Source: Bradyrhizobium amphicarpaeae
Lineage (GTDB): Bacteria > Pseudomonadota > Alphaproteobacteria > Rhizobiales > Xanthobacteraceae
Assembly: GCF_002266435.3 (NCBI RefSeq)
Contig: NZ_CP029426.2
Coordinates: 186,001 to 250,000 of the forward strand
DNA length: 64,000 nucleotides
Reading direction: 5' to 3'
The notes below the pieces were generated by a model that did no database searches, had not been told where the DNA came from, and saw only the letters and a list, made by a program, of their open reading frames with translations. Shown here one piece after another: positions 20,716-50,914 of the stretch (positions are counted from its first letter, which is position 1; every line of letters begins with the position of its first letter). The position numbers were made by a program, and so were the translations under genes.

Positions 20716-21555
20716 CTATCCGGAAGGCCGGTTGCGCTGGCGATCGCTGTAGAGCTTCATGATCGCCGCCGCGGTTTCCTCGATCGAGCGACGGGTGACG
20801 TCGAGCAGCGGCCAATCGTGCTTGGCGCTGAGCTTGCGCGCAAACGCGACCTCCTCGGTCACCGACTGCCTGTCGGTATAGGTCTCGTTGCCGGAATCGG
20901 ACCCCATCGAGAGCAGGCGATTCTGGCGGATCTGGATCAGGCGTTCCGGCGTCGCGTGCAGGCTGACCACCAGCGGCCGTGTCAGCTTCCCCAATTGCTC
21001 CGGCACGGGAATGCCGGGCACCAGCGGCACGTTGGCCGTGCGGATGCCGCGATTTGCGAGATAGATCGACGTCGGCGTCTTCGACGTGCGGGACACGCCG
21101 ACAAGGACGACGTCGGCATCGTCGAGGCCTTCGACATGCTGGCCGTCGTCGTGGATCATCGTGTAGTTCAGCGCATCGATGCGCTTGAAATATTCCGCAT
21201 TGAGGACGTGCTGGGCGCCGACGCGGCCGGTGGTCGCAGCCCCGAGATAGGCTTCGAACAGCTGCATCACCGGGCCGATGATCGACAGGCTCGGAACATT
21301 GATCCCCTTGCACTTGTCCTCGAGCCTGGAGACCAGATCTTTCTCAAGCAGCGTGAACAGCACGATCCCGGGCGCTTCCTCGATCTCGTCGAGCACTCGG
21401 TCGAGCTGTTTCTGGCTGCGCACCAGCGGATAGACATGCTCGACCGGGGTGACGTTGGCGTATTGCGCAGCGACGGCGCGCGCCACCGTGATCAGCGTCT
21501 CGCCGGTCGAGTCGGACACGAGGTGCAGATGGAAATAATTGTTCGAGGTCGGCAC
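20716..21555 (-). CDS. Pyruvate, phosphate dikinase regulatory protein (DUF299 kinase/pyrophosphorylase)
   Basis: 279 residues from GTG 21555. DUF299 proteins phosphorylate and reactivate PPDK or PEP synthase, tuning pyruvate-PEP interconversion. The family start [21 protein letters not shown] and the P-loop-like [18 protein letters not shown] are clear. It is the equivalent of Rickettsia RP001 and the Caulobacter first gene, which border the origin of replication. The gene-free region immediately upstream is annotated as the candidate oriC. GTG is the only start near the conserved N terminus. Confidence 0.93.
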
Positions 21556-21848
21556 AAAAACCCTTTGTATGGAGACGGTGTGGTCTGTGGATTTCTGTGG
21601 ACCTTAACCCCTCGGAAAGGGTTGCGCGACACCGGGGGCGGGACAACTGCCAATTTTGTTCACACCACTGCCCCTCTGAAGAAGTTCGATGCCCCGGAAA
21701 AGCAGACATGGGATTCCGGGGACAACCCCCTTGATAAGCTGCCGACAGACACGCGCAAGCCTTTGAAGCTGGTCGTCTTCTCGGAAGGCGCCGGAGCTGC
21801 CTGGGATATGTTGATGGATGTGAACAAACGATCGGGAACGTGCGAACG

Positions 21849-21906
21849 GAATCTTGTGAGTCCAATTCACGGTCACATAGACTCAAACCTTAAGAATCTA
21901 AGATTC
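21849..21906. promoter_or_regulatory. Cluster of five GANTC (CcrM-type) methylation sites with AT-rich palindrome
   Basis: Sites: GAATC 21849-21853, GAGTC 21858-21862, GACTC 21880-21884, GAATC 21894-21898, GATTC 21902-21906. The last two are in the arms of a perfect palindrome AAGAATCT-A-AGATTCTT (21892-21908). A sixth GATTC is at 21712-21716. At about 64% GC one GANTC is expected per roughly 300 bp, so five in 58 bp is a strong excess. The palindrome is a candidate DNA unwinding element. Confidence 0.65.
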
Positions 21907-21955
21907 TTTATAGGAGAAGGGGCGCTCCAGATGGACTATGTGTGAAGGTGAGACC

Positions 21956-21970
21956 TTAACGAGTTCTTAC
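21956..21970 (+). promoter_or_regulatory. CtrA-like box TTAA-N7-TTAC
   Basis: TTAA at 21956-21959 and TTAC at 21967-21970 with the exact 7-base spacing of the CtrA consensus TTAA-N7-TTAA, seven of eight bases matching. It lies 44 bp before the hemJ ATG, so it could act on origin firing or on hemJ. Confidence 0.4.
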
Positions 21971-22013
21971 TATCCCCAGTTCCATTCCCTGGCAGAAATC
22001 CCTGGCGCCAAAC

Positions 22014-22448
22014 ATGTTCGAAGACGTCTATCTCTGGATCAAGGCGCTGCATGTCATCGCGGTCATCGCCTGGATGGCCGGCATGCTCTATCTGCCGCGG
22101 CTGTTCGTTTATCACTGCGAGGCCGAGATTGGCTCGAAGCAGTCGGAAACGTTTAAGGTCATGGAACGCCGGCTGCTCAAGGCGATCATCAACCCCGCCA
22201 TGACCGTCACCTGGCTCGCAGGGCTCTACCTCGCCTGGTCCGGCCACTGGTTTTCATTTGGTTGGCTGCACGTAAAATTGGCAATGGTCCTGGCGATGTC
22301 GGGGGTCCACGGCTTTTTTGTCCGCTGGGTGAAGGACTTCGCCGCCGACCGGCGTCCACGGACCCAGAAATTCTATCGGATTATCAATGAGGTGCCGACA
22401 ATTTTGATGATCATCATCGTTGTCATGGTGATCGTGAAGCCGTTCTAG
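22014..22448 (+). CDS. hemJ: Protoporphyrinogen IX oxidase HemJ
   Basis: 144 residues with four membrane helices. HemJ oxidises protoporphyrinogen IX to protoporphyrin IX in heme synthesis in many alphaproteobacteria. Family features: WIKALHVIAVIAWMAGMLYLPRLFVYHCEAE at the N terminus with the essential His, MERRLLKAIINPAMTVTWLAG, and WLHVKLAMVLAMSGVHGF. hemE, which often adjoins it near the origin in related genomes, is not in this window. No gene lies between the candidate oriC and this start codon. Confidence 0.93.
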   Translation: MFEDVYLWIKALHVIAVIAWMAGMLYLPRLFVYHCEAEIGSKQSETFKVMERRLLKAIINPAMTVTWLAGLYLAWSGHWFSFGWLHVKLAMVLAMSGVHGFFVRWVKDFAADRRPRTQKFYRIINEVPTILMIIIVVMVIVKPF

Positions 22449-25627: not shown

Positions 25628-25670
25628 GGCTAGTTCTTGATTGTAGAACTAGCGCTTGTTCCATTTCTTT

Positions 25671-25684
25671 GTTTCACGTGAAAC
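25671..25684. promoter_or_regulatory. parS site 1
   Basis: Perfect palindrome GTTTCACGTGAAAC, within the 16-base form TGTTTCACGTGAAACA (25670-25685). It is the conserved ParB-binding centromere sequence of alphaproteobacteria and is 44 bp after mnmE. Confidence 0.95.
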
Positions 25685-25732
25685 ATCGACCCGGGCCTCA
25701 GCCTTCTTCGCCGGGCTCATATTCCGTCAGCT

Positions 25733-25746
25733 GTTTCACGTGAAAC
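25733..25746. promoter_or_regulatory. parS site 2
   Basis: Perfect GTTTCACGTGAAAC, again with flanking T and A (25732-25747), 62 bp from site 1 centre to centre. Confidence 0.95.
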
Positions 25747-25958
25747 ATGACTCGGCTGGCGCGGGGCCGATCCAGTTCCTCTCCCTTCGCAGTCCCGGGT
25801 CCATTCTTGGGGTACCCAGGTCACCTCGTCGCATAGCCCTAGCGACCAACGAATCCAGACTGTCGCCGTGAAAAGAGCCTGCTTGCTGCGCTTGCAATAC
25901 CGAGTGCGAGGCGCTGTCCGGACCCAAACGGGCGTCCTCGGCCGTGAGCACCGACTTT

Positions 25959-25972
25959 GTTTCACGTGAAAC
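25959..25972. promoter_or_regulatory. parS site 3
   Basis: Perfect GTTTCACGTGAAAC in the mnmE-mnmG gap; the right flank is G rather than A. Confidence 0.95.
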
Positions 25973-26042
25973 GCGAGACAATTCAATGCCCGTTCTACTG
26001 TGCATGGGGTTGTTTTCACAAAATTGCCTCGGCCGGATCGGT

Positions 26043-26056
26043 GTTTCACGTGAAAC
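26043..26056. promoter_or_regulatory. parS site 4
   Basis: Perfect GTTTCACGTGAAAC with flanking T and A, 57 bp before the mnmG start, so bound ParB could affect mnmG transcription. Confidence 0.95.
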
Positions 26057-26113
26057 ATCCGCCTCACGAGTTTCCACTTCCGGCCCAACCGCCCGTGAGC
26101 TAGAAGTCTGTCC

Positions 26114-27994
26114 ATGCGAACAGAGCAAGAGAGCTTCGACGTCATCGTGATCGGCGGCGGCCACGCCGGCTGTGAGGCCGCGGCTGCATCCGCTCGGATG
26201 GGTGCTGCGACGGCTTTGGTGACGCATCGCTTCGCCACCGTCGGCGCGATGTCCTGCAATCCCGCCATCGGCGGCCTCGGCAAGGGTCATTTGGTCCGCG
26301 AAGTCGATGCGCTCGATGGTCTGATGGGTCGCGTGGGCGATGCCGGCGGCATTCAGTTTCGTGTGCTCAATCGCCGGAAGGGTCCCGCCGTCCGAGGCCC
26401 GCGGGCCCAGGCTGACCGGAAGCTTTATGCCGCCGCGATGCAGGCCGCGATCCGGGAGACCGAGGGTCTTTCCGTCATCGAAGGCGAGGCAGACGAGCTG
26501 ATCGTGGTCGATGGCCGCGTCACCGGTCTGCGCCTGGCCAGCGGTCGAGAGCTTCGGGCAGGGGCTGTGGTTGTCACCACAGGCACCTTCCTGCGCGGTC
26601 TGATCCATCTTGGAGAGAAGAACTGGCCTGCCGGCCGCGTCGGTGAGGCACCGGCGATGGGTCTTTCGGCCTCCTTTGAGCGCGCCGGCTTCAGCCTCGG
26701 ACGGCTCAAGACCGGCACTCCGCCGCGCCTCGACGGCACCACGATCGACTGGTCGGCGGTCGAGATGCAGCCCGGAGACGAGCCACCGGAGCCGTTCTCG
26801 GTGATGACCGAGCGGATCACCACGCCGCAGATCCAGTGCGGGATCACCCGGACCACCGCTGCGACCCATGAGGTGATCCGGGCCAATGTCCATCGCTCGC
26901 CGATGTACTCCGGCCAGATCAAGAGTTCTGGTCCGCGCTATTGCCCCTCGATCGAGGACAAGATCGTCCGCTTCGGCGACCGCGACGGTCATCAGATCTT
27001 CCTGGAGCCGGAAGGGCTCGACGACAGTACCGTCTATCCCAACGGCATCTCGACCTCGCTGCCGGAGGAGGTCCAGCTCGCGATCCTTGCCACCATTCCC
27101 GGCGTGGAGCGGGCGAAGATGGTCCGCCCGGGCTATGCCATCGAATACGATCACATCGATCCCCGCGAGCTGGATCCGACCCTGCAGACCAAGCGCCTGC
27201 GCGGCCTGTTCCTGGCCGGACAGATCAACGGCACCACCGGCTACGAAGAGGCAGCAGGGCAGGGCATCGTGGCCGGCCTGAACGCGGCGCTGGCTGCGAG
27301 CGGGGCCGCACTGACCGTGTTCGACCGCGCCGACGGCTATCTCGGTGTGATGATCGACGACCTCGTCACCCGCGGGATCAGCGAGCCCTATCGGATGTTC
27401 ACCTCCAGGGCCGAGTACCGGCTGACGCTGCGGGCCGACAACGCGGATCAGCGCCTGACCGAGAAGGGGATTGCCCTGGGCTGCGTCGGGAATGCCCGGA
27501 TCCAGCATCACCGCGCCAAGATGGGCGCTTTGAATGCGGCTCGGACGCTGTCGAAATCACTGACGATCACCCCGAACGAGGCGATCAAGCACGGACTGTC
27601 CCTGAACCGGGACGGGCAGCGCCGGTCGGCGTTCTCGCTGATGGCCTATCCGGATATCGGCTGGAGCCAGGTCCGTGCGATCTGGCCGGAGCTGTCCGCG
27701 ATCGACCCCGTCATCGCCACCCATCTCGAGATCGACGCCAAATACGACGTCTATCTGGAGCGCCAGACCGCCGACGTTGAATCCTTCCGGCGTGACGAGG
27801 GGCTGGTGCTGTCGGAGGTCGATTATCAGCAGGTGCCCGGGCTCTCCAACGAGGTCCGCGCCAAGCTGGAGAAGGCGCGGCCGTTCACCGTCGGGCAGGC
27901 GGGCCGGATCGACGGCATGACGCCGGCCGCACTCGGCATCCTCGCGGCCTATCTCCGCCGTGAGGCCCGGAAGACCTCCAAAGCAATCGCATAG
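26114..27994 (+). CDS. mnmG: tRNA uridine 5-carboxymethylaminomethyl modification enzyme MnmG
   Basis: 626 residues. The FAD-dependent partner of MnmE. The dinucleotide-binding start [49 protein letters not shown], the catalytic-loop [10 protein letters not shown] and the Cys-containing [13 protein letters not shown] are all present, and the C-terminal MnmE-binding helical domain ends at [12 protein letters not shown]. It is preceded by four parS sites and followed by a fifth 2 bp after its stop codon. Confidence 0.98.
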
Positions 27995-27996
27995 GC

Positions 27997-28010
27997 GTTT
28001 CACGTGAAAC
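27997..28010. promoter_or_regulatory. parS site 5, overlapping the rsmG start codon
   Basis: Perfect GTTTCACGTGAAAC two bases after the mnmG stop codon. The GTG in its right half (28004-28006) is the only canonical start codon in the rsmG frame before the conserved region. Confidence 0.92.
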
Positions 28011-28777
28011 AGCGCGGACCGGGCGGCGACAGACCGCTAACGCGACGACCCGGAACGGGTGAGGGCGCCGATCGCCGATCCGAACCGGCGCCGGTTAAGC
28101 CGAAGATCGACAAAGCCAGCGCCAACGATCAGGCGCTCGATTCTGTCATCGCCGCCGACAAGCGCGAGGCGCTGAAGCTCGCGCCTGTTTCACATGAAAC
28201 GGAGGCGCGGCTCGATCGCTACATCGCCTTGCTCCGGGAGTGGCAGGCCAAGACCAATCTGGTCGCACCCTCGACCCTGCCTCAGCTCTGGACCCGGCAT
28301 ATCGCCGACTCGTTACAGCTGGTCGATCTCGCGCCCTCCGCCAAGCGCTGGGCCGACCTCGGCAGTGGCGGCGGCTTTCCCGGAATCGTGCTCGCCTGCG
28401 CCATGGCCGGCAAGCCGGACGCCCGTGTCCACCTCGTTGAGCGAATCGCCAAGAAGGCCGCGTTTTTGCGCGAAGCGGTTCGCGTCACCACATCACCGGG
28501 AGTCGTACATCTCGCTGAGATCGGGGATAATGTGGATAGAATCACCGGCCCGGTCGATTGCGTCACCGCGCGTGCGCTGGCTCCGCTAAATCAACTCATC
28601 GGCTTTGCGGAGCCGCTGATGCGCCAAGGCGCAAAGGCGCTGTTTCTCAAGGGTCAAGATGTAGAGGCTGAATTGACCGAAGCCGCTAAATATTGGAATA
28701 TTCAGCCGCAGCTCCACAAAAGCCGTACAGGCGACGGGTGGATCGTTGAGCTGATATCCGTCGAACGGCGCGGGTGA
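28004..28777 (+). CDS. rsmG: 16S rRNA (guanine-527-N7)-methyltransferase RsmG
   Basis: 257 residues if it starts at GTG 28004. The first 55 or so residues are polar and not RsmG-like; the domain begins near LKLAPVSHETEARLDRYIALLREWQ. The SAM-binding motif DLGSGGGFPGIVLACAM and WTRHIADSLQL are diagnostic. In this frame there is no ATG, GTG or TTG between 28004 and the domain, and the frame is closed by the mnmG stop just upstream, so the GTG inside parS site 5 appears to be the start although it has no ribosome site. Translation may be coupled to mnmG termination 9 bases before. Confidence 0.9.
   Translation: MKQRGPGGDRPLTRRPGTGEGADRRSEPAPVKPKIDKASANDQALDSVIAADKREALKLAPVSHETEARLDRYIALLREWQAKTNLVAPSTLPQLWTRHIADSLQLVDLAPSAKRWADLGSGGGFPGIVLACAMAGKPDARVHLVERIAKKAAFLREAVRVTTSPGVVHLAEIGDNVDRITGPVDCVTARALAPLNQLIGFAEPLMRQGAKALFLKGQDVEAELTEAAKYWNIQPQLHKSRTGDGWIVELISVERRG
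28187..28200. promoter_or_regulatory. Near-perfect parS site 6 inside rsmG
   Basis: GTTTCACATGAAAC differs from the consensus palindrome at one central base (G to A). It encodes Val-Ser-His-Glu-Thr of RsmG, so it is constrained by coding too. Confidence 0.65.
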
Positions 28778-28806
28778 GGCGTCCAGGGGCTGAGTGGGGA
28801 ATTTCG

Positions 28807-29661
28807 ATGAGCGAGATTGACGAGCCGCAGCAAGAGCAGACTTCCGAGGTCCCGCACGGCCACCCGCGCATCCTGGCGCTGGCGAATCAAAAGGGCGGCG
28901 TGGGCAAGACAACCACAGCGATCAACCTCGGCACGGCACTCGCCGCGATCGGCGAGCGCGTCCTGATCGTCGATCTCGATCCGCAGGGCAACGCCTCGAC
29001 CGGTCTCGGCATCGACCGCCGCAACCGCTCCTGCTCGACCTATGACGTGCTGATCGGCGAAGCTCCGTTGCGCGAGGCCGTGGTCTCGACCGCGGTGCCG
29101 CGGCTGCACATCGCGCCCTCGACCATGGATCTCTCCGGCCTCGAGCTCGAGCTCGGCACCACGCCCGGCCGGGCCTTCAAGCTGCGCGACGCCATCGGCG
29201 CGCTCAACAACAACGTCTCGCCGGATGCCGACTACACCTATGTGCTGATCGACTGCCCGCCCTCGCTCAACCTGCTCACGGTGAACGCGATGGCGGCGTC
29301 GGACGCGATCCTGGTGCCGCTGCAATGCGAGTTCTTCGCGCTCGAAGGTCTGTCGCAATTGCTGCAGACGGTCGAGCAGGTGCGGTCGACGCTCAATCCG
29401 AACCTGTCGATCCACGGCATCGTGCTGACCATGTTCGATTCGCGCAACAACCTCTCCAACCAGGTCGTTGCCGACGTCCGGCAGTTCATGGGCGAGAAGG
29501 TCTACAAGACCATGATCCCGCGCAACGTGCGCATCTCGGAGGCGCCGTCCTACGGCAAGCCGGTGCTGGTCTACGATCTCAAATGCGTCGGCAGCGAAGC
29601 CTATTTGCGGCTCGCCACCGAAGTGATCCAGCGCGAGCGCGAGCTGCGGGTCACGCATTGA
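28807..29661 (+). CDS. parA: Chromosome partitioning ATPase ParA
   Basis: 284 residues from ATG 28807 (MSEIDEPQQEQ). It is the ATPase that moves ParB-parS complexes during segregation. The deviant Walker A KGGVGKTTTAINLGTALA is near residue 30, followed by DLDPQGNASTGLG and the Walker B YVLIDCPPSLNLL. The short N-terminal extension before the domain is of chromosomal ParA (Soj) type, not the plasmid type with a DNA-binding domain. It starts 29 bp after rsmG. Confidence 0.97.
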   Translation: MSEIDEPQQEQTSEVPHGHPRILALANQKGGVGKTTTAINLGTALAAIGERVLIVDLDPQGNASTGLGIDRRNRSCSTYDVLIGEAPLREAVVSTAVPRLHIAPSTMDLSGLELELGTTPGRAFKLRDAIGALNNNVSPDADYTYVLIDCPPSLNLLTVNAMAASDAILVPLQCEFFALEGLSQLLQTVEQVRSTLNPNLSIHGIVLTMFDSRNNLSNQVVADVRQFMGEKVYKTMIPRNVRISEAPSYGKPVLVYDLKCVGSEAYLRLATEVIQRERELRVTH

Positions 29662-29757: not shown

Positions 29758-29818
29758 ACCTACAACTTACGACAATTCAGTTCTGGAGTGCTGCAGCGTG
29801 AATCCAAGGGAGCTGGCG

Positions 29819-30706
29819 ATGGCCGACGAAGCGCGTTCGCGACTGGGCCGGGGTCTTGCAAGTCTGATCGGTGACGTCGGCGGCGAGGCTCAGCATGTCG
29901 ATCGGCCACGCGCGCAGCGCAAGGTGCCGATCGAGTTCATCAAGGCCAATCCGCGCAATCCGCGCCGCACCTTTTCGGACACCGAGCTGAAGGAGCTCAG
30001 CGAGTCGATCAGGCAGCACGGCGTGATCCAGCCGATCGTGGTGCGTCCCGTGAAGGGTGCACAGGACCGCTTCGAGATCATCGCCGGCGAGCGGCGCTGG
30101 CGCGCCTCGCAGATGGCCGGCCTGCATGAAGTGCCGATCGTTCCGGTCGACATCAGCGACAGCGACGCGCTGGAATTCGCGATCGTCGAGAACGTGCAGC
30201 GCGAAGATCTCAATCCGATGGAAGAGGCGCAGGGCTATCACGCGCTCGCCAACGAGTTCAAACGCAGCCAGGAAGACATCGCAAAAGTCGTCGGAAAGAG
30301 CCGCAGCCACGTCGCCAACATGATGCGGCTGACCAAGCTGCCGGCCGAGGTGCAGGCCTTCATCGCGACCGGTGCGCTGACCGCCGGACACGCCCGCGCG
30401 CTGATCGGCGTGCCCGATCCGCTCGCGGCTGCCAAGCGCATCGTCGAGGAGGGTCTCAACGTGCGCCAGGCGGAGGCGCTCGCACATGAAGAGGGCGTGC
30501 CGGAGCGCAAGCCGCAAAAAGCGCGCGCCACTGGGGGCAAGGAAAAAGACCCCGACACGATCGATCTGGAAAAGCGCGTCAGCGACGCGCTCGGCCTCAA
30601 GGTCACCGTCAATCACCGCGATCCCGGCGGTTCGGTCCAGATCAGCTACAGCAACCTCGATCAGCTCGACGAGGTGATGAAGCGGCTGGCCAAGGGCGTG
30701 CTGTAG
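29819..30706 (+). CDS. parB: Chromosome partitioning protein ParB
   Basis: 295 residues from ATG 29819 with AAGGGAG as ribosome site; GTG 29798 in frame is an alternative. ParB is a CTPase clamp that loads at parS and spreads along DNA. Order: ParA-contacting N terminus (SRLGRGLASLIGD), the ParB/Srx CTP-binding part with NPRNPRRTF and the GERRWRA box, the helix-turn-helix (QEDIAKVVGKSRSHVANMMRL) and a C-terminal dimer domain after a charged linker. Its target sites lie 2-4 kb upstream. Confidence 0.97.
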   Translation: MADEARSRLGRGLASLIGDVGGEAQHVDRPRAQRKVPIEFIKANPRNPRRTFSDTELKELSESIRQHGVIQPIVVRPVKGAQDRFEIIAGERRWRASQMAGLHEVPIVPVDISDSDALEFAIVENVQREDLNPMEEAQGYHALANEFKRSQEDIAKVVGKSRSHVANMMRLTKLPAEVQAFIATGALTAGHARALIGVPDPLAAAKRIVEEGLNVRQAEALAHEEGVPERKPQKARATGGKEKDPDTIDLEKRVSDALGLKVTVNHRDPGGSVQISYSNLDQLDEVMKRLAKGVL

Positions 30707-35479: not shown

Positions 35480-36529
35480 ATGGATTCAGATTGCTACGAT
35501 CTCGATTACGACTATGCCGCGTCCATCGCCGGACGGGCGATGCGGAGCATGGTCGAACAGCGGATTCCGCCGACACCGTCAAATTTTGCCATTTGGTTCC
35601 ACTATTTCGCCGGCAACCATGACGATCTGCGCAACGCCATCGATCTCCTGATCGATCACAATCGTCCCTTCGACGACAGGACCAATCGGGACCTGTTCAA
35701 GACCTATATCGCTCCCAAGGTGAACGCCGCGGTCACCGCTGACACGTCCGAGCGCCTTCATGACGTCATGGGCGCGGCGAAGGAGTTCCTGACCACTGCG
35801 ATTGCCGACAATCGCTCCCAGATGCAGGTCATCAGCGAGGTGGCGGACCAGGGCAAGGCCGGCGTCGATCCGAAGGCGCTGGTCGCCCAGCTCATAAACG
35901 AGCTGGCGCGGGCCGCCACGCGGGCGACACGGCTGGAAGCAGGCTTTGCGGAAAAAACCCGCGAGCTCGATGTCATCCGCGATTCGCTATCGAGGTCCGA
36001 GGAGCGCGCCCGGACCGACACTCTGACGGGTCTCGCAAACCGCCGCGCGCTCGACGAATTCCTGCGCAAGGCGCAGGCGACCGCGGCATGGGGCGAGCCG
36101 CTCAGCGTGCTGATGCTCGACATCGACCACTTCAAGGCGTTCAACGACAATTTCGGCCACGGCGTCGGCGACCAGGTGTTGCGCCTGATGGCGAAGGTGC
36201 TGCGCGAAAAGGTTCGCGCGCAGGATCTGCCGGCGCGCTATGGCGGCGAGGAGCTGATCGCGGTGCTGCCGGATGCCGATCTCGCCACCTGCGCCGATCT
36301 CGCCGAGCGCATCAGGCACGCGCTCGCCGAGTGCACGATCACCCGCCGCTCGACCGGCGAGGTCCTGCCCAGCATCAGCGTGTCGATCGGCGTGGCGCAA
36401 TACCGGGCCGGCGAAGCCGTCGCCGATCTCATCGAGCGCTGCGACCGCGCCCTCTATCTCGCCAAGAGCAGCGGCCGCAATCGCGTGATGACGGAGACCG
36501 AGCTCGATCGCGCGGGAGCTGCGGGCTAG
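35480..36529 (+). CDS. Cytoplasmic GGDEF diguanylate cyclase
   Basis: 349 residues from ATG 35480 (MDSDCYDLDYDYAASIAGRAM); the upstream frame is not protein-like. It makes cyclic di-GMP from two GTP. The N-terminal 170 residues form an alpha-helical domain without membrane helices (PTPSNFAIWFHYFAGNHDDL), followed by a coiled coil and a GGDEF domain starting DTLTGLANRRALDEFL. The active site reads GGEEL, a conservative variant, and the product-inhibition I-site RxxD is present (RAQD, nine residues before). The N-terminal domain recurs in many Bradyrhizobium cyclases, but I cannot name its ligand. Its stop codon overlaps that of the HIT gene opposite. Confidence 0.93.
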   Translation: MDSDCYDLDYDYAASIAGRAMRSMVEQRIPPTPSNFAIWFHYFAGNHDDLRNAIDLLIDHNRPFDDRTNRDLFKTYIAPKVNAAVTADTSERLHDVMGAAKEFLTTAIADNRSQMQVISEVADQGKAGVDPKALVAQLINELARAATRATRLEAGFAEKTRELDVIRDSLSRSEERARTDTLTGLANRRALDEFLRKAQATAAWGEPLSVLMLDIDHFKAFNDNFGHGVGDQVLRLMAKVLREKVRAQDLPARYGGEELIAVLPDADLATCADLAERIRHALAECTITRRSTGEVLPSISVSIGVAQYRAGEAVADLIERCDRALYLAKSSGRNRVMTETELDRAGAAG

Positions 36530-37233
36530 GCCCTGGCCGCCACGAAACTCTTCCTGATCTTCAATTCAAAACCTTGCTCGATGGTCGCCTTGACCAGGCT
36601 CTTAGCGGGCTCAATTTTCCAGTTCCAATTATTACTTCCGATCACAGAGGCTATGATTTTTCGCAGGAACTGAGAGGGAACACCAGCTGCGGGCAATACA
36701 TATGCTAACGTTTCCCCGCCAATGGCTTTCAAATCGCAAGCATAAATGAAGTCTCTCTCTTTGCTCGCGCGCTTGGGAAGCATGGAGAATGGAATTGGCT
36801 GAGCGCCTCTGGATTTGAGTTCTGCAAGGACCAGAGTGAGTTCTTCAGTACCAAGCGGTACAACATGGAGATGCCCATGCTCCGTGGAACAGAGTGAATT
36901 TCCAATAGAAGTGGAGCCATGCTCAAACAGTAAGTGGGAGCTTCTCGTCGGCATCGTATATTGAGTAAGAAGCCCTACGAGTTCTTCGAGCAAGCCGTTC
37001 GTTCGCGCATAGAGCAGAACATTGGGCTCGTGCGAGAACGGCACGACTAAACTGTGACCAGCAACCAAAGCTCCGATGCTTGGAATTACAGCAAAATTCT
37101 TCGTTTGCCGAGCCACAGCGGAGACGATTCCTTCATCCATAAACAATTGTGATAGGAGGGTGTTGTTCTTGCCTACCAACTCCGCACATATCGAGCATGC
37201 GTGGTTATGGCGCAACGAAAGATTTGAGTTCAT
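36526..37233 (-). CDS. HIT-family hydrolase/transferase
   Basis: 235 residues. The histidine triad reads HGHLHVVPL near residue 120, and a CSIC pair near the N terminus (HNHACSICAEL) matches the Cys pair of many HIT and GalT-related proteins. HIT enzymes cleave or transfer nucleotides (for example dinucleoside polyphosphates, phosphoramidates, adenylated intermediates). The C-terminal 100 residues have no match I recognise, and the protein is longer than simple HIT proteins (110-150). It overlaps the ThiL-like gene by 29 bp. Its last codons lie in high-GC DNA and end in the stop of the converging cyclase gene. Confidence 0.85.
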   Translation of the reverse strand: MNSNLSLRHNHACSICAELVGKNNTLLSQLFMDEGIVSAVARQTKNFAVIPSIGALVAGHSLVVPFSHEPNVLLYARTNGLLEELVGLLTQYTMPTRSSHLLFEHGSTSIGNSLCSTEHGHLHVVPLGTEELTLVLAELKSRGAQPIPFSMLPKRASKERDFIYACDLKAIGGETLAYVLPAAGVPSQFLRKIIASVIGSNNWNWKIEPAKSLVKATIEQGFELKIRKSFVAARA

Positions 37234-38227
37234 CCGAGATCGATCCCACAGTTCTAAACTGTTCCCAAACGTTGAGAGTGACGCCTGATCGTATTAAGTC
37301 GGCTTCGCAAAGGCCGGTGCCCTGCTTGGGCCTCTCTTCAACGATGCCAAGGTAAATGGCACCCATTTTTCTTGCCACATCAGCGATAGGAGTTGTGCCG
37401 GTAAATATCAGGCCGTAGTCGCCGCCGACATTGACGTTGAAGTTTTTCCATTTTGCGGAGTCAGTACCTAATGGATTCTGCGCCAGCGGGACTTTTTCGA
37501 GATCGATCCGAAACGTAACCCCGCTTGTATCTGCAAGTTGCTCTGCCGAGGCTAATAGTCCATCTGACATATCCATGCATGACGTACAAAAGCCAGATTC
37601 GACTAGCTGTAAGCCGGCAGAAACCTGCGCGTGAGGCCTTGAGACGTCCAAAGAGCCGCCTCGTAGTTTTGCGCGAGCTGCGTGAATAAGGCTAGCCACG
37701 GATGTACCTAAAGGGGGGCCAACAACGTATATCAAGTCGCCGGGTTTAGCTCCGGAGCGAGTAAGCACCCCTCGCGATGAGGCTTGGCCAATCGCTGTGA
37801 TCGTCGTCGAGCGCATCCTTGACTGTTTGGTATCGCCTCCGAGCAACCTAAGTCGGTAGTCCGACATCGCGTCGCTTATTCCCTCCAAGTACTTGCGGAG
37901 ATAGTCGATCGTATCCGTTCGAGTTAAGCTCAGCACCAGAAGCATACCAAGTGGTTGTCCGCCCATGGCGGCGATGTCGCTTACATTCATTGTCACATGA
38001 AAGTGTGCGAGGTCCGACGGTGTGCCGACCTCCAAAATCTCCATAAACGTTCGGCTGGGACCTTGGTCGGTCGTGAAAAGAAGGGGCGATGTATCCGGGG
38101 CTGTGAACACAGCGCAGTCATCGAGAAGGATGTTTCCAAAGTCCCGACTCATCAGGGGTAAAATCAGCTGCGAGATAATACCACGCTCTCCCAACTCAGA
38201 GAGGCTATCATTCATTATCTTGGTCAT
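37205..38227 (-). CDS. ThiL-like kinase of the AIR-synthase (PurM) superfamily
   Basis: 340 residues. The layout is that of thiamine-monophosphate kinase: LGERGIISQLILP at the start, the acidic LDDCAVF, TTDQGP, the NVSDIAAMGGQPLGMLL helix, LGGDTKQS and MDMSDGLLASAEQLADTSGV. These are the Mg-ATP and substrate loops of ThiL. However DDCAV replaces the usual DDAA and the TTD loop continues QGPSRTF rather than the ThiL TLVEGVHF, so the substrate may not be thiamine phosphate. The gene is in the low-GC block; a housekeeping thiL probably lies elsewhere (with nusB/ribH), not checked. Confidence 0.85.
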   Translation of the reverse strand: MTKIMNDSLSELGERGIISQLILPLMSRDFGNILLDDCAVFTAPDTSPLLFTTDQGPSRTFMEILEVGTPSDLAHFHVTMNVSDIAAMGGQPLGMLLVLSLTRTDTIDYLRKYLEGISDAMSDYRLRLLGGDTKQSRMRSTTITAIGQASSRGVLTRSGAKPGDLIYVVGPPLGTSVASLIHAARAKLRGGSLDVSRPHAQVSAGLQLVESGFCTSCMDMSDGLLASAEQLADTSGVTFRIDLEKVPLAQNPLGTDSAKWKNFNVNVGGDYGLIFTGTTPIADVARKMGAIYLGIVEERPKQGTGLCEADLIRSGVTLNVWEQFRTVGSISDELKSFVAP

Positions 38228-38242
38228 CGGAGTGCCAGCTGA

Positions 38243-38869
38243 TTAATCGTGTGGGTCGTGCGATACTGCATCGACAGATCTGTCTTCCTGTTCTCCAAAA
38301 AGAGCCTCGGTAGCGCGAATAAGGCGCTTTACGAATAACTCGGAAGAGAAACCCACGATAAAGGCAAAGCCCCCGACAAAGAATCCAAACTCCGGACCTA
38401 CCGCCGGCGAACGGACCATTGCGAGCAACCCTCCGAGGACAACGTAGAGACCGACGACAGCAAGTACACCCCCGTGAAGGGGGGTGAGCAGCTGCCACGC
38501 CACCTTCTCGCTCTGATAGTTCTTATACCGAAGAGCAAGCACGACAATCCTGGACGCCGCGAGGGTACTACCCAGAGCTCCGAATAGGAAGACAAAGACT
38601 AGAAGCGAGCGGTGCTCGAAACGGCAGATACTAGAAACCGTCGCAGTCTGCATCGTCGTAGCCGAATCGGAACAACTAACCAGCTTTTCTGGCCCAATAA
38701 CGAATGTAGTGAGGCCCAATGAAATTGCAAAAATAGCTACGTGATAGGCGCATACTAGAACGGCGATTCTTGGGACATGTCCGCTGCTGTCAGATGGAGT
38801 GTTCGCCGGTGCGAGCCCGGAGGGGGCGCCCTCTTCTGGTTCATTGGTGAGTGGCTGTAATTCCGACAT
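38243..38869 (-). CDS. Small four-helix membrane protein, first gene of the ThiL-HIT operon
   Basis: 208 residues: a polar start of about 32 residues, helix 1 (about 33-54), a loop with two Cys (SCSDS, SICRF), helix 2 (88-112), helix 3 (132-152), helix 4 (162-180) and a charged tail. The sequence GGFAFIVGFSSELFVKRLIR in helix 4 resembles a pattern in small membrane proteins of unknown role. It ends 15 bp before the ThiL-like gene. No function assigned. Confidence 0.7.
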   Translation of the reverse strand: MSELQPLTNEPEEGAPSGLAPANTPSDSSGHVPRIAVLVCAYHVAIFAISLGLTTFVIGPEKLVSCSDSATTMQTATVSSICRFEHRSLLVFVFLFGALGSTLAASRIVVLALRYKNYQSEKVAWQLLTPLHGGVLAVVGLYVVLGGLLAMVRSPAVGPEFGFFVGGFAFIVGFSSELFVKRLIRATEALFGEQEDRSVDAVSHDPHD

Positions 38870-38996
38870 CTCAAAAGCTCTCTTCGCCGGTGCATATTAC
38901 AGATTGAACCGCCCGCTGTCAGGCTCTTGAACCCCTGAATTTACGTTAGTTTACCTTAGAGACGGGCCGCAGAGGGCCGTTCCCCGGGAATAACCG

Positions 38997-40694
38997 TCAG
39001 CCCGCCATCATCATTTCCGTCGCGCCGGTCTCGATCGCGTGCACGCCGTGCTCGACGACATTGTTGCGGCCGCCGTGTTTTGCGGCGTAGAGCGCGGCGT
39101 CGGCGGCTTCGATCAGGTCGCCGGGACGCAAGGCCTCGTTGGGCTTCGCTGCGGCAACGCCGATCGAGACGGTGACGATCATGTGGGCTGAGGTGATGTG
39201 CGGCAGGCACAGCCTCTGCACCGCCGCGCGCACCTGCTCGCCGATCTCGACGGCGCGGTTCACGTCGGTGTTCGGCAGCAGCAGGCAGAACTCCTCGCCG
39301 CCATAGCGCGCCGCGAAGCCCATCGTGTCGGCGGCGATGCCGGACAGGGATTCGCCGAGCCGGGTCAGGCAGGAATCGCCTTCGAGATGGCCGTAGGTGT
39401 CGTTGAACAGCTTGAAGTGATCGACGTCGATCATCAGCAGCGCGAGGTCGCTGCCATATTGCTGCGCGCGCATCCATTCGAAGTCGAGCCGGCTCTGGAA
39501 GCCGCGGCGATTGTTGAGCCCCGACAGCATGTCGATCGAGGCCATCACCGTCAGCCGGTCGTTGCTCGCGATCAGCTCGCGTTCGCGCTGACTCAGCTGC
39601 GCCGCCATTGCGTTGAACGCGCGGGCCAGCGGCACGAACTCGGCCGGCAGGCGGTTGCGCGCCGCGCGGGCCGACAGATCGCCCTCGCCGAGACGCTTGG
39701 CCATGTCGGCGAGCATCTCGATCGGCTTGATGACGACCTTTTCGGCGGCGATCAGCGCGCCGAGCAGGACGAACACGACGACGAAACCGAGCTGGAGATA
39801 GGCGGTACGGATGTCGCGATTGACCGCCGCGGACACCTTGTCTTCGTCGATGCTGGTGATCAGGCGGGCATTGGTGCCGGAGATGCGGATGTAGCTGACC
39901 GCGCGACGCGAGCCGTCGGCGGCGAGGAAGGACAATGAGCCTTCATCCTGGTCGGAACGCAGCGCCCTGTCGGCGATCGCCGACATCAGCGGCAGATTGT
40001 CGAGCGGACGGCCGACCGCACTGTGCTGATCGGCCGGCGCGGCCAGCACGGTGCCGGCGCTGTCGACCAGCACGGCGGTGATGCCGGCGCGGCCGCCGAG
40101 ATTGTTCATGACCTTCGACATCCAGTCGAGGTTGACCGTGGCGAGCACGACGGCGTCGGATGTGCCGCTGAAGGCGGATACCGGATAGACCGCCATCACG
40201 GTCGGCGTCTGCACCGGCCGCGACAGGATGAAATCGCTCAGCACGAAGCGGCCGCTCGTTTGGGCCTGCTGAAAATAGGGCCGGTCGCTCAGGTCGAGGC
40301 CGACATACATGTTGTTGGTCGCGCACTGGATGCGCCCGTCTGCGCCCGCGATCAGAAGCGTGCGGATCCAGGGCAGGTTCGACGGCAGGCTCGCGCGCAG
40401 CACGTCGCAGCTCTTGCTGACGCCGCCGGCGGAGGCGCGAATGAAGGCCTCCGATTTCAGGATGGTCTCGACCGACGAGATCACCTCGCGCTGCGCGTCG
40501 GCGCTGTGTCTGGCGACGGTGGTGAATTCGGCCGTCGCCTGCGCGATCTGCCGCGTACGGGTGTCTTCGAGCGAACGGATGCGCTCCAGCATCAAGGGCG
40601 CCACCAGAATCACCGCGAGCAACGCAAGGCGCGCCCGGATTCCGAGAACCTGCTTGAGTTTCGCTCGTTTGCGGTTGAAACTGACGCTTGCCAT
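38997..40694 (-). CDS. Membrane diguanylate cyclase with dCache sensor, HAMP and GGDEF
   Basis: 565 residues: helix 1 (about 20-38), a periplasmic dCache domain with GLDLSDRPYFQQAQTSG and TVMAVYPVSA, helix 2 (about 275-297), a HAMP linker (KPIEMLADMAKRLGEGDLS) and a C-terminal GGDEF domain with DMLSGLNNRRGFQ and active site GGEEF. The product-inhibition RxxD is absent at its usual place (ADTMGFAARYGGEEF). It senses a small periplasmic ligand, unknown, and makes cyclic di-GMP. It lies upstream of the low-GC block and on the same strand. Confidence 0.93.
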   Translation of the reverse strand: MASVSFNRKRAKLKQVLGIRARLALLAVILVAPLMLERIRSLEDTRTRQIAQATAEFTTVARHSADAQREVISSVETILKSEAFIRASAGGVSKSCDVLRASLPSNLPWIRTLLIAGADGRIQCATNNMYVGLDLSDRPYFQQAQTSGRFVLSDFILSRPVQTPTVMAVYPVSAFSGTSDAVVLATVNLDWMSKVMNNLGGRAGITAVLVDSAGTVLAAPADQHSAVGRPLDNLPLMSAIADRALRSDQDEGSLSFLAADGSRRAVSYIRISGTNARLITSIDEDKVSAAVNRDIRTAYLQLGFVVVFVLLGALIAAEKVVIKPIEMLADMAKRLGEGDLSARAARNRLPAEFVPLARAFNAMAAQLSQRERELIASNDRLTVMASIDMLSGLNNRRGFQSRLDFEWMRAQQYGSDLALLMIDVDHFKLFNDTYGHLEGDSCLTRLGESLSGIAADTMGFAARYGGEEFCLLLPNTDVNRAVEIGEQVRAAVQRLCLPHITSAHMIVTVSIGVAAAKPNEALRPGDLIEAADAALYAAKHGGRNNVVEHGVHAIETGATEMMMAG

Positions 40695-50796: not shown

Positions 50797-50831
50797 AAAA
50801 AGAAAGGGGCTCCAACTTGCGCTGGAGCCCC
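50797..50831 (-). terminator. Intrinsic terminator of the glnK-amtB operon (copy 1)
   Basis: Stem GGGGCTCCA (50806-50814) with TGGAGCCCC (50823-50831); on the minus strand it is followed by TTTCTTTTTGG. It lies 84 bp beyond the amtB stop. Confidence 0.85.
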
Positions 50832-50914
50832 TCAACGGTCAGGGCATTGCCGGGTATGTGCCCGAACCGTAGTTGTGGACGTGGTCTCCGGGAAGACCAC
50901 GCCCGGGAGGAGAC

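Follow-up and report, generated by a model that had tools for sequence, protein, structure and literature searches.

The locus and its gene content

The window analysed here is a stretch of 64,000 nucleotides from Bradyrhizobium amphicarpaeae (chromosome positions 186001-250000). It belongs to a complete, one-contig chromosome of 7,025,930 bp (7.03 Mb), whose deposited record begins at dnaA (DnaA domain at 379-867). Chromosome positions 207,556-208,013 hold a gap between a COG1806/DUF299 gene and hemJ (Table 1). An earlier note on this DNA had described it as a gene-free stretch of 458 bp and a candidate oriC, and its coordinates are correct: the two genes start immediately outside the gap, at 21555 (-) and 22014 (+), with no credible gene inside. 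The neighbouring genes listed in that note stand for the most part: SecB, DnaQ, CoaE, Maf, the PPDK regulator, HemJ, Rho, MnmE and the ParB domain score above the curated NCBIfam cut-offs, whereas the ParA matches remain below theirs, and the names mnmG and rsmG come from the reading of open reading frames alone. The COG1806 protein has its nearest named relatives in Bradyrhizobium (99% identical). In the plasmid collection (8 records), matches are confined to the flanking genes.

The GC content of the gap is 52.4%, versus a mean of 64.7% for 458-bp windows across 1.2 Mb, and 0.35% of these windows are lower. The motif content exceeds what chance would give: in the same 1.2 Mb, at least two T[AG]TYCACA words together with at least six GANTC sites occur in 5 of 23,991 windows, all of them at 207 kb, that is, at the gap; T[AG]TYCACA and the other box words were chosen with the gap already in view. 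Elsewhere in the window, the GC content falls to 53-56% at 36001-39000, versus about 64% around it, a larger drop than at the gap. The sole Rfam match at the gathering threshold is the Bradyrhizobiaceae sRNA BjrC68 (50797-50878, minus strand, 99.5 bits).

Table 1. Features of the candidate origin region, in positions of the window
Feature	Position	Strand	Basis
COG1806/DUF299 PPDK regulator gene, RP001 orthologue, left boundary	20716..21555	-	profile score above curated NCBIfam cut-off
Candidate oriC: intergenic gap flanked by the COG1806 gene and hemJ	21556..22013		skew, synteny, conservation
Two adjacent DnaA-box-like words AAATCCACA, AGGTCCACA, TGTGGA type	21586..21604 (starts 21586, 21596)	-	conserved cores
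DnaA-box-like word TTGTTCACA	21656..21664	+	TTCACA core conserved
DnaA-box-like word TTGTTCACA, inverted	21819..21827	-	exact word conserved
GANTC (CcrM-type) sites 21858, 21880, 21894, 21902	21858..21906		conservation across 102 gaps
40-bp stretch richest in AT within the gap (72.5% AT), putative unwinding element; holds the palindrome	21873..21912		base composition
Palindrome AAGAATCTAAGATTCTT, 17 bp	21892..21908		read from sequence
CtrA-like word TTAACGAGTTCTTAC	21956..21970		one mismatch to TTAA-N7-TTAA
hemJ, right boundary	22014..22448	+	profile score above curated NCBIfam cut-off
Four parS-like sites, mnmE-mnmG gap	25670..26057 (25670, 25732, 25958, 26042)		palindrome matches
Two further parS-like sites	27996..28201 (27996, 28186)		palindrome matches
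parA	28774..29661	+	ParA below curated cut-offs
parB	29798..30706	+	ParB domain above curated cut-off

Motifs in the gap and their conservation

The motifs reported earlier for the gap are present: DnaA-box-like 9-mers (two copies of TTGTTCACA and two TGTGGA words), six GANTC sites, five of which fall within 58 bp (21849-21906), and a single CtrA-like box. The four box-like words are candidate DnaA sites. Every word in the gap differs from TTATCCACA at two or more positions; the strong variants of the DnaA word are those generally known. The CtrA-like word is imperfect, with C in the last place. An AT-rich stretch, a candidate for unwinding as expected of an oriC, is found at 21873. Four GANTC sites inside 50 bp occur in the 1.2 Mb only at this gap and at a spot near 683 kb. 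The latter (683.4-683.7 kb) is a second dense cluster, holding eight or more sites over about 240 bp, for the most part without box-like context.

The same gene arrangement was found in 109/109 Bradyrhizobium-type loci of relatives, with gap lengths of 402-512 bp. The resulting 110 gaps comprise 102 distinct sequences, with identity to the window's gap down to 50%. Locus L153 (JAUEPE010000028.1), titled Frankia sp. RB7, is likewise a Bradyrhizobium-type locus, with a 94% identical protein; mislabelling or contamination of that record is possible. Identity reaches at least 98% in 23.4% of the columns of the gap, versus 7% of fourfold sites in the adjacent gene. Conservation is strong at 21586-21610, where 23 of 25 columns are at least 90% identical. 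The box at 21596 retains its TGTGGA core in 101/102 gaps and that at 21586 in at least 80/102. The TTCACA core of the box at 21656 (21659-21664) is kept in 99/102, the major form being TTCTTCACA (87 gaps) and the form in the window, TTGTTCACA, a minor one (12/102), while the box at 21819 has TGTGAACAA (that is, TTGTTCACA inverted) exactly in 92 of the 102.

The GANTC sites at 21858, 21880, 21894 and 21902 are kept in 100, 101, 102 and 72 of the 102 gaps, respectively. The site at 21894 reads GAATC in 76 gaps and GATTC in 26; since it is kept throughout with either A or T in the middle, the methylation site stays and the free base varies. The exact form of the CtrA-like word is present in 57/102 gaps. 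Compared with shuffled sequences, mean counts per gap are 2.18 versus 0.23 for TGTGGA-type words, 4.45 versus 2.0 for GANTC and 0.75 versus 0.11 for CtrA-like words. By contrast, words within one mismatch of TTATCCACA show no enrichment in these 102 gaps (0.07 observed, 0.07 shuffled). The AT-rich palindrome of the earlier note is real, but its right arm, with GATTC, is present in only 72 of 102 gaps, which rules it out as a conserved element.

The replication-strand switch and the terminus

The earlier note had named cumulative GC skew of the whole chromosome as a check, with a minimum elsewhere, for example next to dnaA, as the outcome that would speak against the gap. The skew was computed on 1.2 contiguous Mb (-400 to +800 kb) rather than on all 7.03 Mb, supplemented by 0.4 Mb close to the terminus and by 20 samples, each 20 kb long. 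Over the contiguous stretch it reaches its minimum at 201,147, at a distance of 6.4 kb from the gap, and not at dnaA (~0.4 kb), which is 207 kb from the gap. The right arm is G-rich in 7/9 of the 20-kb samples and the left arm C-rich in 8/10, the 3.6-Mb sample (C-rich, between the skew maximum and dif) being excluded from these counts. A complete genome of a second species (G021) agrees: in alternate 20-kb blocks across 0.8 Mb, the running skew sum is lowest after the block at 917-937 kb, with the gap at 957 kb and dnaA at 738 kb.

After correction for gene strand, T-A skew at fourfold sites places the switch at 227 kb, with a bootstrap 95% range (145-268 kb) that includes the gap and excludes dnaA. 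The minimum of the raw cumulative T-A skew is nearer 150 kb at 20-kb sampling. Fourfold G-C skew, considered as another locator, was left unused because it placed the switch badly (464 kb, bootstrap -382 to 766 kb). The gap thus lies at the replication-strand switch at a resolution of tens of kb, as judged from the 1.2 contiguous Mb out of 7.03 Mb.

At the opposite side of the chromosome, 28 bases around 3,670,169 are those printed as dif for B. japonicum USDA 110 in passages of the published literature. The half-site pattern used for the search, which we had taken to be that of dif, subsequently matched this sequence. GC skew reaches its local maximum 94 kb away from dif. In nine one-contig genomes (sizes of eight of them rounded to 0.1 Mb), the arc from the gap to dif spans 0.469-0.499 of the circle (mean 0.488), so that the two are nearly opposite each other. 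The corresponding arc from dnaA is 0.441-0.494 (mean 0.471), and in one genome of the nine (G005) it is dnaA, not the gap, that comes closer to lying opposite dif. The distance between dnaA and the gap is 195-233 kb in these genomes. The comparison omitted G010 and G017 (several contigs) and G025, G027 and G031, where dif was not sought.

Relationship to the Caulobacter and Rickettsia origin interval

The earlier note had equated the gap with the origin interval of Caulobacter and Rickettsia, which agrees with the gene order in the family. According to a passage of PMC1914354, the mapped Caulobacter origin sits between hemE and the COG1806 gene. The COG1806 side is shared with the window, where hemJ takes the place of hemE; the two strong genes of the hemE family (URO-D) in this genome are at 1.75 and 5.49 Mb, neither of them at the origin. 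We compared 53 family loci, retained from 70 after dropping 13 in which no COG1806 gene was found (locus too short or fragment below cut-off) and four wrong-side cuts (L261-L264). In 29 of them, hemE lies to the right of the gap; in the other 24, among which are the window's genome and four from its genus, hemJ does. Since hemE borders the gap in 29/53 loci, the interval is orthologous to the hemE-COG1806 interval. The gene order makes the gap the hemE/COG1806 origin interval known from Caulobacter and Rickettsia, after the departure of hemE.

A further 49 family gaps were aligned, at 37-54% identity to the window's gap. GANTC is found at the position of 21894 in 43 of them and at the other two positions in 25 each, and the short cores of boxes 1 to 4 are found in 43, 21, 40 and 27 gaps, respectively. 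The canonical TCCACA core of box 3 is present in 20/29 hemE-type versus 2/20 hemJ-type gaps. The aligned 40-bp stretch is AT-rich on average (mean 63%, lowest 52.5%). Words at most one mismatch away from TTATCCACA do show enrichment in 48 other gaps of the family (0.71 versus 0.08 shuffled). We also looked for the footprint in other families of the order: box-like words occur in 15/20 stretches, and since the TGAGTC block occurs in only 2/20, the footprint is not recognisable there.

Compared with the origins of Caulobacter crescentus (Cori) and Rickettsia prowazekii, the gap has in common the COG1806-side interval, the AT-rich 40 bp, DnaA-like words and a CtrA-like word. It differs from Cori in that hemE is gone, so that hemJ lies at the right, its boxes are off consensus, and it has one imperfect CtrA word versus five sites. 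The IHF consensus (WATCAN5WTR or WATCAAN4TTR) is absent from the window's gap, and in the gap sets IHF words are weakly above shuffles (0.52 versus 0.28). The CtrA-like word also lies outside the looser TTWW rule for CtrA sites given in passages of PMC1914354, where some published origins of this group are described as having no CtrA site. By the strict rules applied to Wolbachia origins in the same source, the gap would fail on DnaA, CtrA and IHF. Because of this failure and the departure of hemE, we regard it as a variant rather than a plain member of the group.

Based on position, skew, dif symmetry, synteny, conservation and motif content, all observed in this analysis, we consider it very probable that the gap is the chromosomal replication origin.

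The parS cluster and the published origin

A different origin has been published for this family. Ori-Finder (2008) proposed TGTTTCACG as the Bradyrhizobiaceae DnaA box, with origins beside gidA (PMC2275245), which here would place the origin in the mnmE-mnmG (gidA) gap. According to passages of that paper, TGTTTCACG was chosen because all ten then-known genomes carried the palindrome TGTTTCACGTGAAACA near gidA and the skew switch. The position is in the same neighbourhood, about 4 kb from the COG1806-hemJ gap, and skew cannot part the two. For the genes in between (80 loci), fourfold T-A skew is -0.045 for hemJ, 0.513 for rho and 0.105 for mnmE (79 loci), with reference values of 0.233 for leading and 0.071 for lagging genes; since these values are mixed, they do not separate the gap from the parS cluster. 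The preference for the COG1806-hemJ gap therefore rests on motif identity and on synteny with a mapped origin, because skew resolves tens of kb at best.

Motif identity argues against the gidA gap. TGTTTCACG is half of the ParB site parS: in the table of a ParB review, as far as its passages go, the TGTTTCACGTGAAACA palindrome is the parS of Hyphomonas neptunium, and the Caulobacter consensus fits it. Six copies of the TGTTTCACGTGAAACA type with 0-2 mismatches are found at chromosome positions 211,670-214,201, 3.7-6.2 kb from the gap toward parAB; elsewhere in the genome there is one copy with two mismatches, at 5.25 Mb. These palindromes (25670-28201), beside the origin and parAB as expected of parS, are predicted sites. 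As with the chromosomal parS of Caulobacter and Hyphomonas, the same 16-bp palindrome adjoins parAB, in the neighbouring cluster rather than in the gap. The palindrome is present in 13/13 other genomes, and in 12 its copies lie exclusively within a few kb of the COG1806 gene, those of G004 adjoining it across the record start, as judged from a rounded size. G010 has one extra copy at 9.11 Mb.

The mnmE-mnmG gap contains no word within two mismatches of TTATCCACA, and the origin-like conservation belongs to the COG1806-hemJ gap. Conversely, a TGTTTCACG-like word (at most one mismatch) is found in 0/102 COG1806-hemJ gaps. Unlike the latter, the Ori-Finder origin is built on parS half-sites and lies beyond hemJ, rho and mnmE. 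The rival placement in the gidA gap, which requires TGTTTCACG to be a DnaA box specific to the family, is thus very unlikely, and the published start signal looks like a chromosome-sorting signal, parS, mistaken for an origin.

The earlier note had held that the origin in this genus is usually placed by GC skew only, which the literature does not bear out. In the passages available, TGTTTCACG was reused to set the origin of B. diazoefficiens and is given for Oligotropha, and in other Bradyrhizobium papers either Ori-Finder itself was used or the record was simply rotated to dnaA. A 2026 paper remarks in general terms that some DoriC entries are wrong. The literature considered also includes PMC3091675, PMC3794950, PMC4840208, PMC7022226, PMC13342612, PMC7020250, PMC11031950, PMC10927693, PMC2731167, PMC1276791, PMC9584773, PMC10225481 and PMC6315104. 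We found no paper in the open-access literature searched that points to the mix-up with parS in the Ori-Finder motif. The deposited record G010:C1 (1-221) opens 120 bp ahead of a parS cluster, which would fit a rotation to the Ori-Finder origin.

Other explanations of the gap

Alternatively, the gap could do no more than house the divergent promoters of the COG1806 gene and hemJ, controlled by the cell cycle and close to the origin without being it. Two divergent genes do require promoters in the gap, and GANTC and CtrA-like words are known from cell-cycle promoters too. However, related blocks persist where hemE instead of hemJ lies at the right, and the hemJ-proximal end is not conserved, with 1/29 columns at 90%. 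In addition, the interval is the mapped origin in Caulobacter (PMC1914354, in the passage mentioned above). We therefore consider a promoter-only role extremely unlikely. An origin next to dnaA, at the record start, can practically be dismissed: nine GANTC sites occur in the region from -1000 to +400, along with one TTGTTCACA and two box-like words that carry a single mismatch, but GC skew falls for 200 kb further past dnaA, likewise in the second species, and the T-A switch is within 25 kb of dnaA in 0.05% of bootstrap draws. The box-like words upstream of dnaA may serve dnaA regulation.

A model of initiation

With the COG1806-hemJ gap as the origin, DnaA would bind the four weak, facing boxes at 21586, 21596, 21656 and 21819, and the bound DnaA would open the AT-rich stretch at 21873-21912. 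Forks would depart both ways and come together in the vicinity of dif at 3.67 Mb. CcrM presumably methylates the GANTC cluster, which lies within and next to the AT-rich stretch, and this cluster may control the timing of initiation jointly with CtrA at 21956. The TGTTTCACGTGAAACA cluster close by would be the parS centromere read by ParB, and not an origin. The genome holds one RAMA-domain gene of CcrM-like length and three genes of the GcrA family, the profile of which also gave a match in one archaeon in the control search. GcrA reads methylated GANTC. We tentatively suggest, as a possibility on the unlikely side, that in the clade lacking hemE the origin lost consensus DnaA boxes and kept a tight cluster of CcrM sites within and next to its unwinding stretch. 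Whether these sites are fully or half methylated, a state that GcrA perhaps reads, would then directly gate melting. The sign of this is the GANTC at 21894, retained in all 102 gaps with either A or T as the free base. Such gating would be the alphaproteobacterial counterpart of the GATC/SeqA control at E. coli oriC.

Implications

For an agriculturally important genus of nitrogen-fixing soil bacteria and its relatives, the analysis specifies an exact origin that can be put to the test. It accounts for the fact that tools reliant on hemE and consensus DnaA boxes miss the Bradyrhizobium-type origin, and it indicates that the origin motif which software proposed for these bacteria, and which genome papers then took over, is half a parS site. 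As the two positions are only about 4 kb apart, large-scale applications, among them copy-number gradients, are little affected. For the family, the placement would change entries in origin databases, ori/ter assays and the rotation of records.
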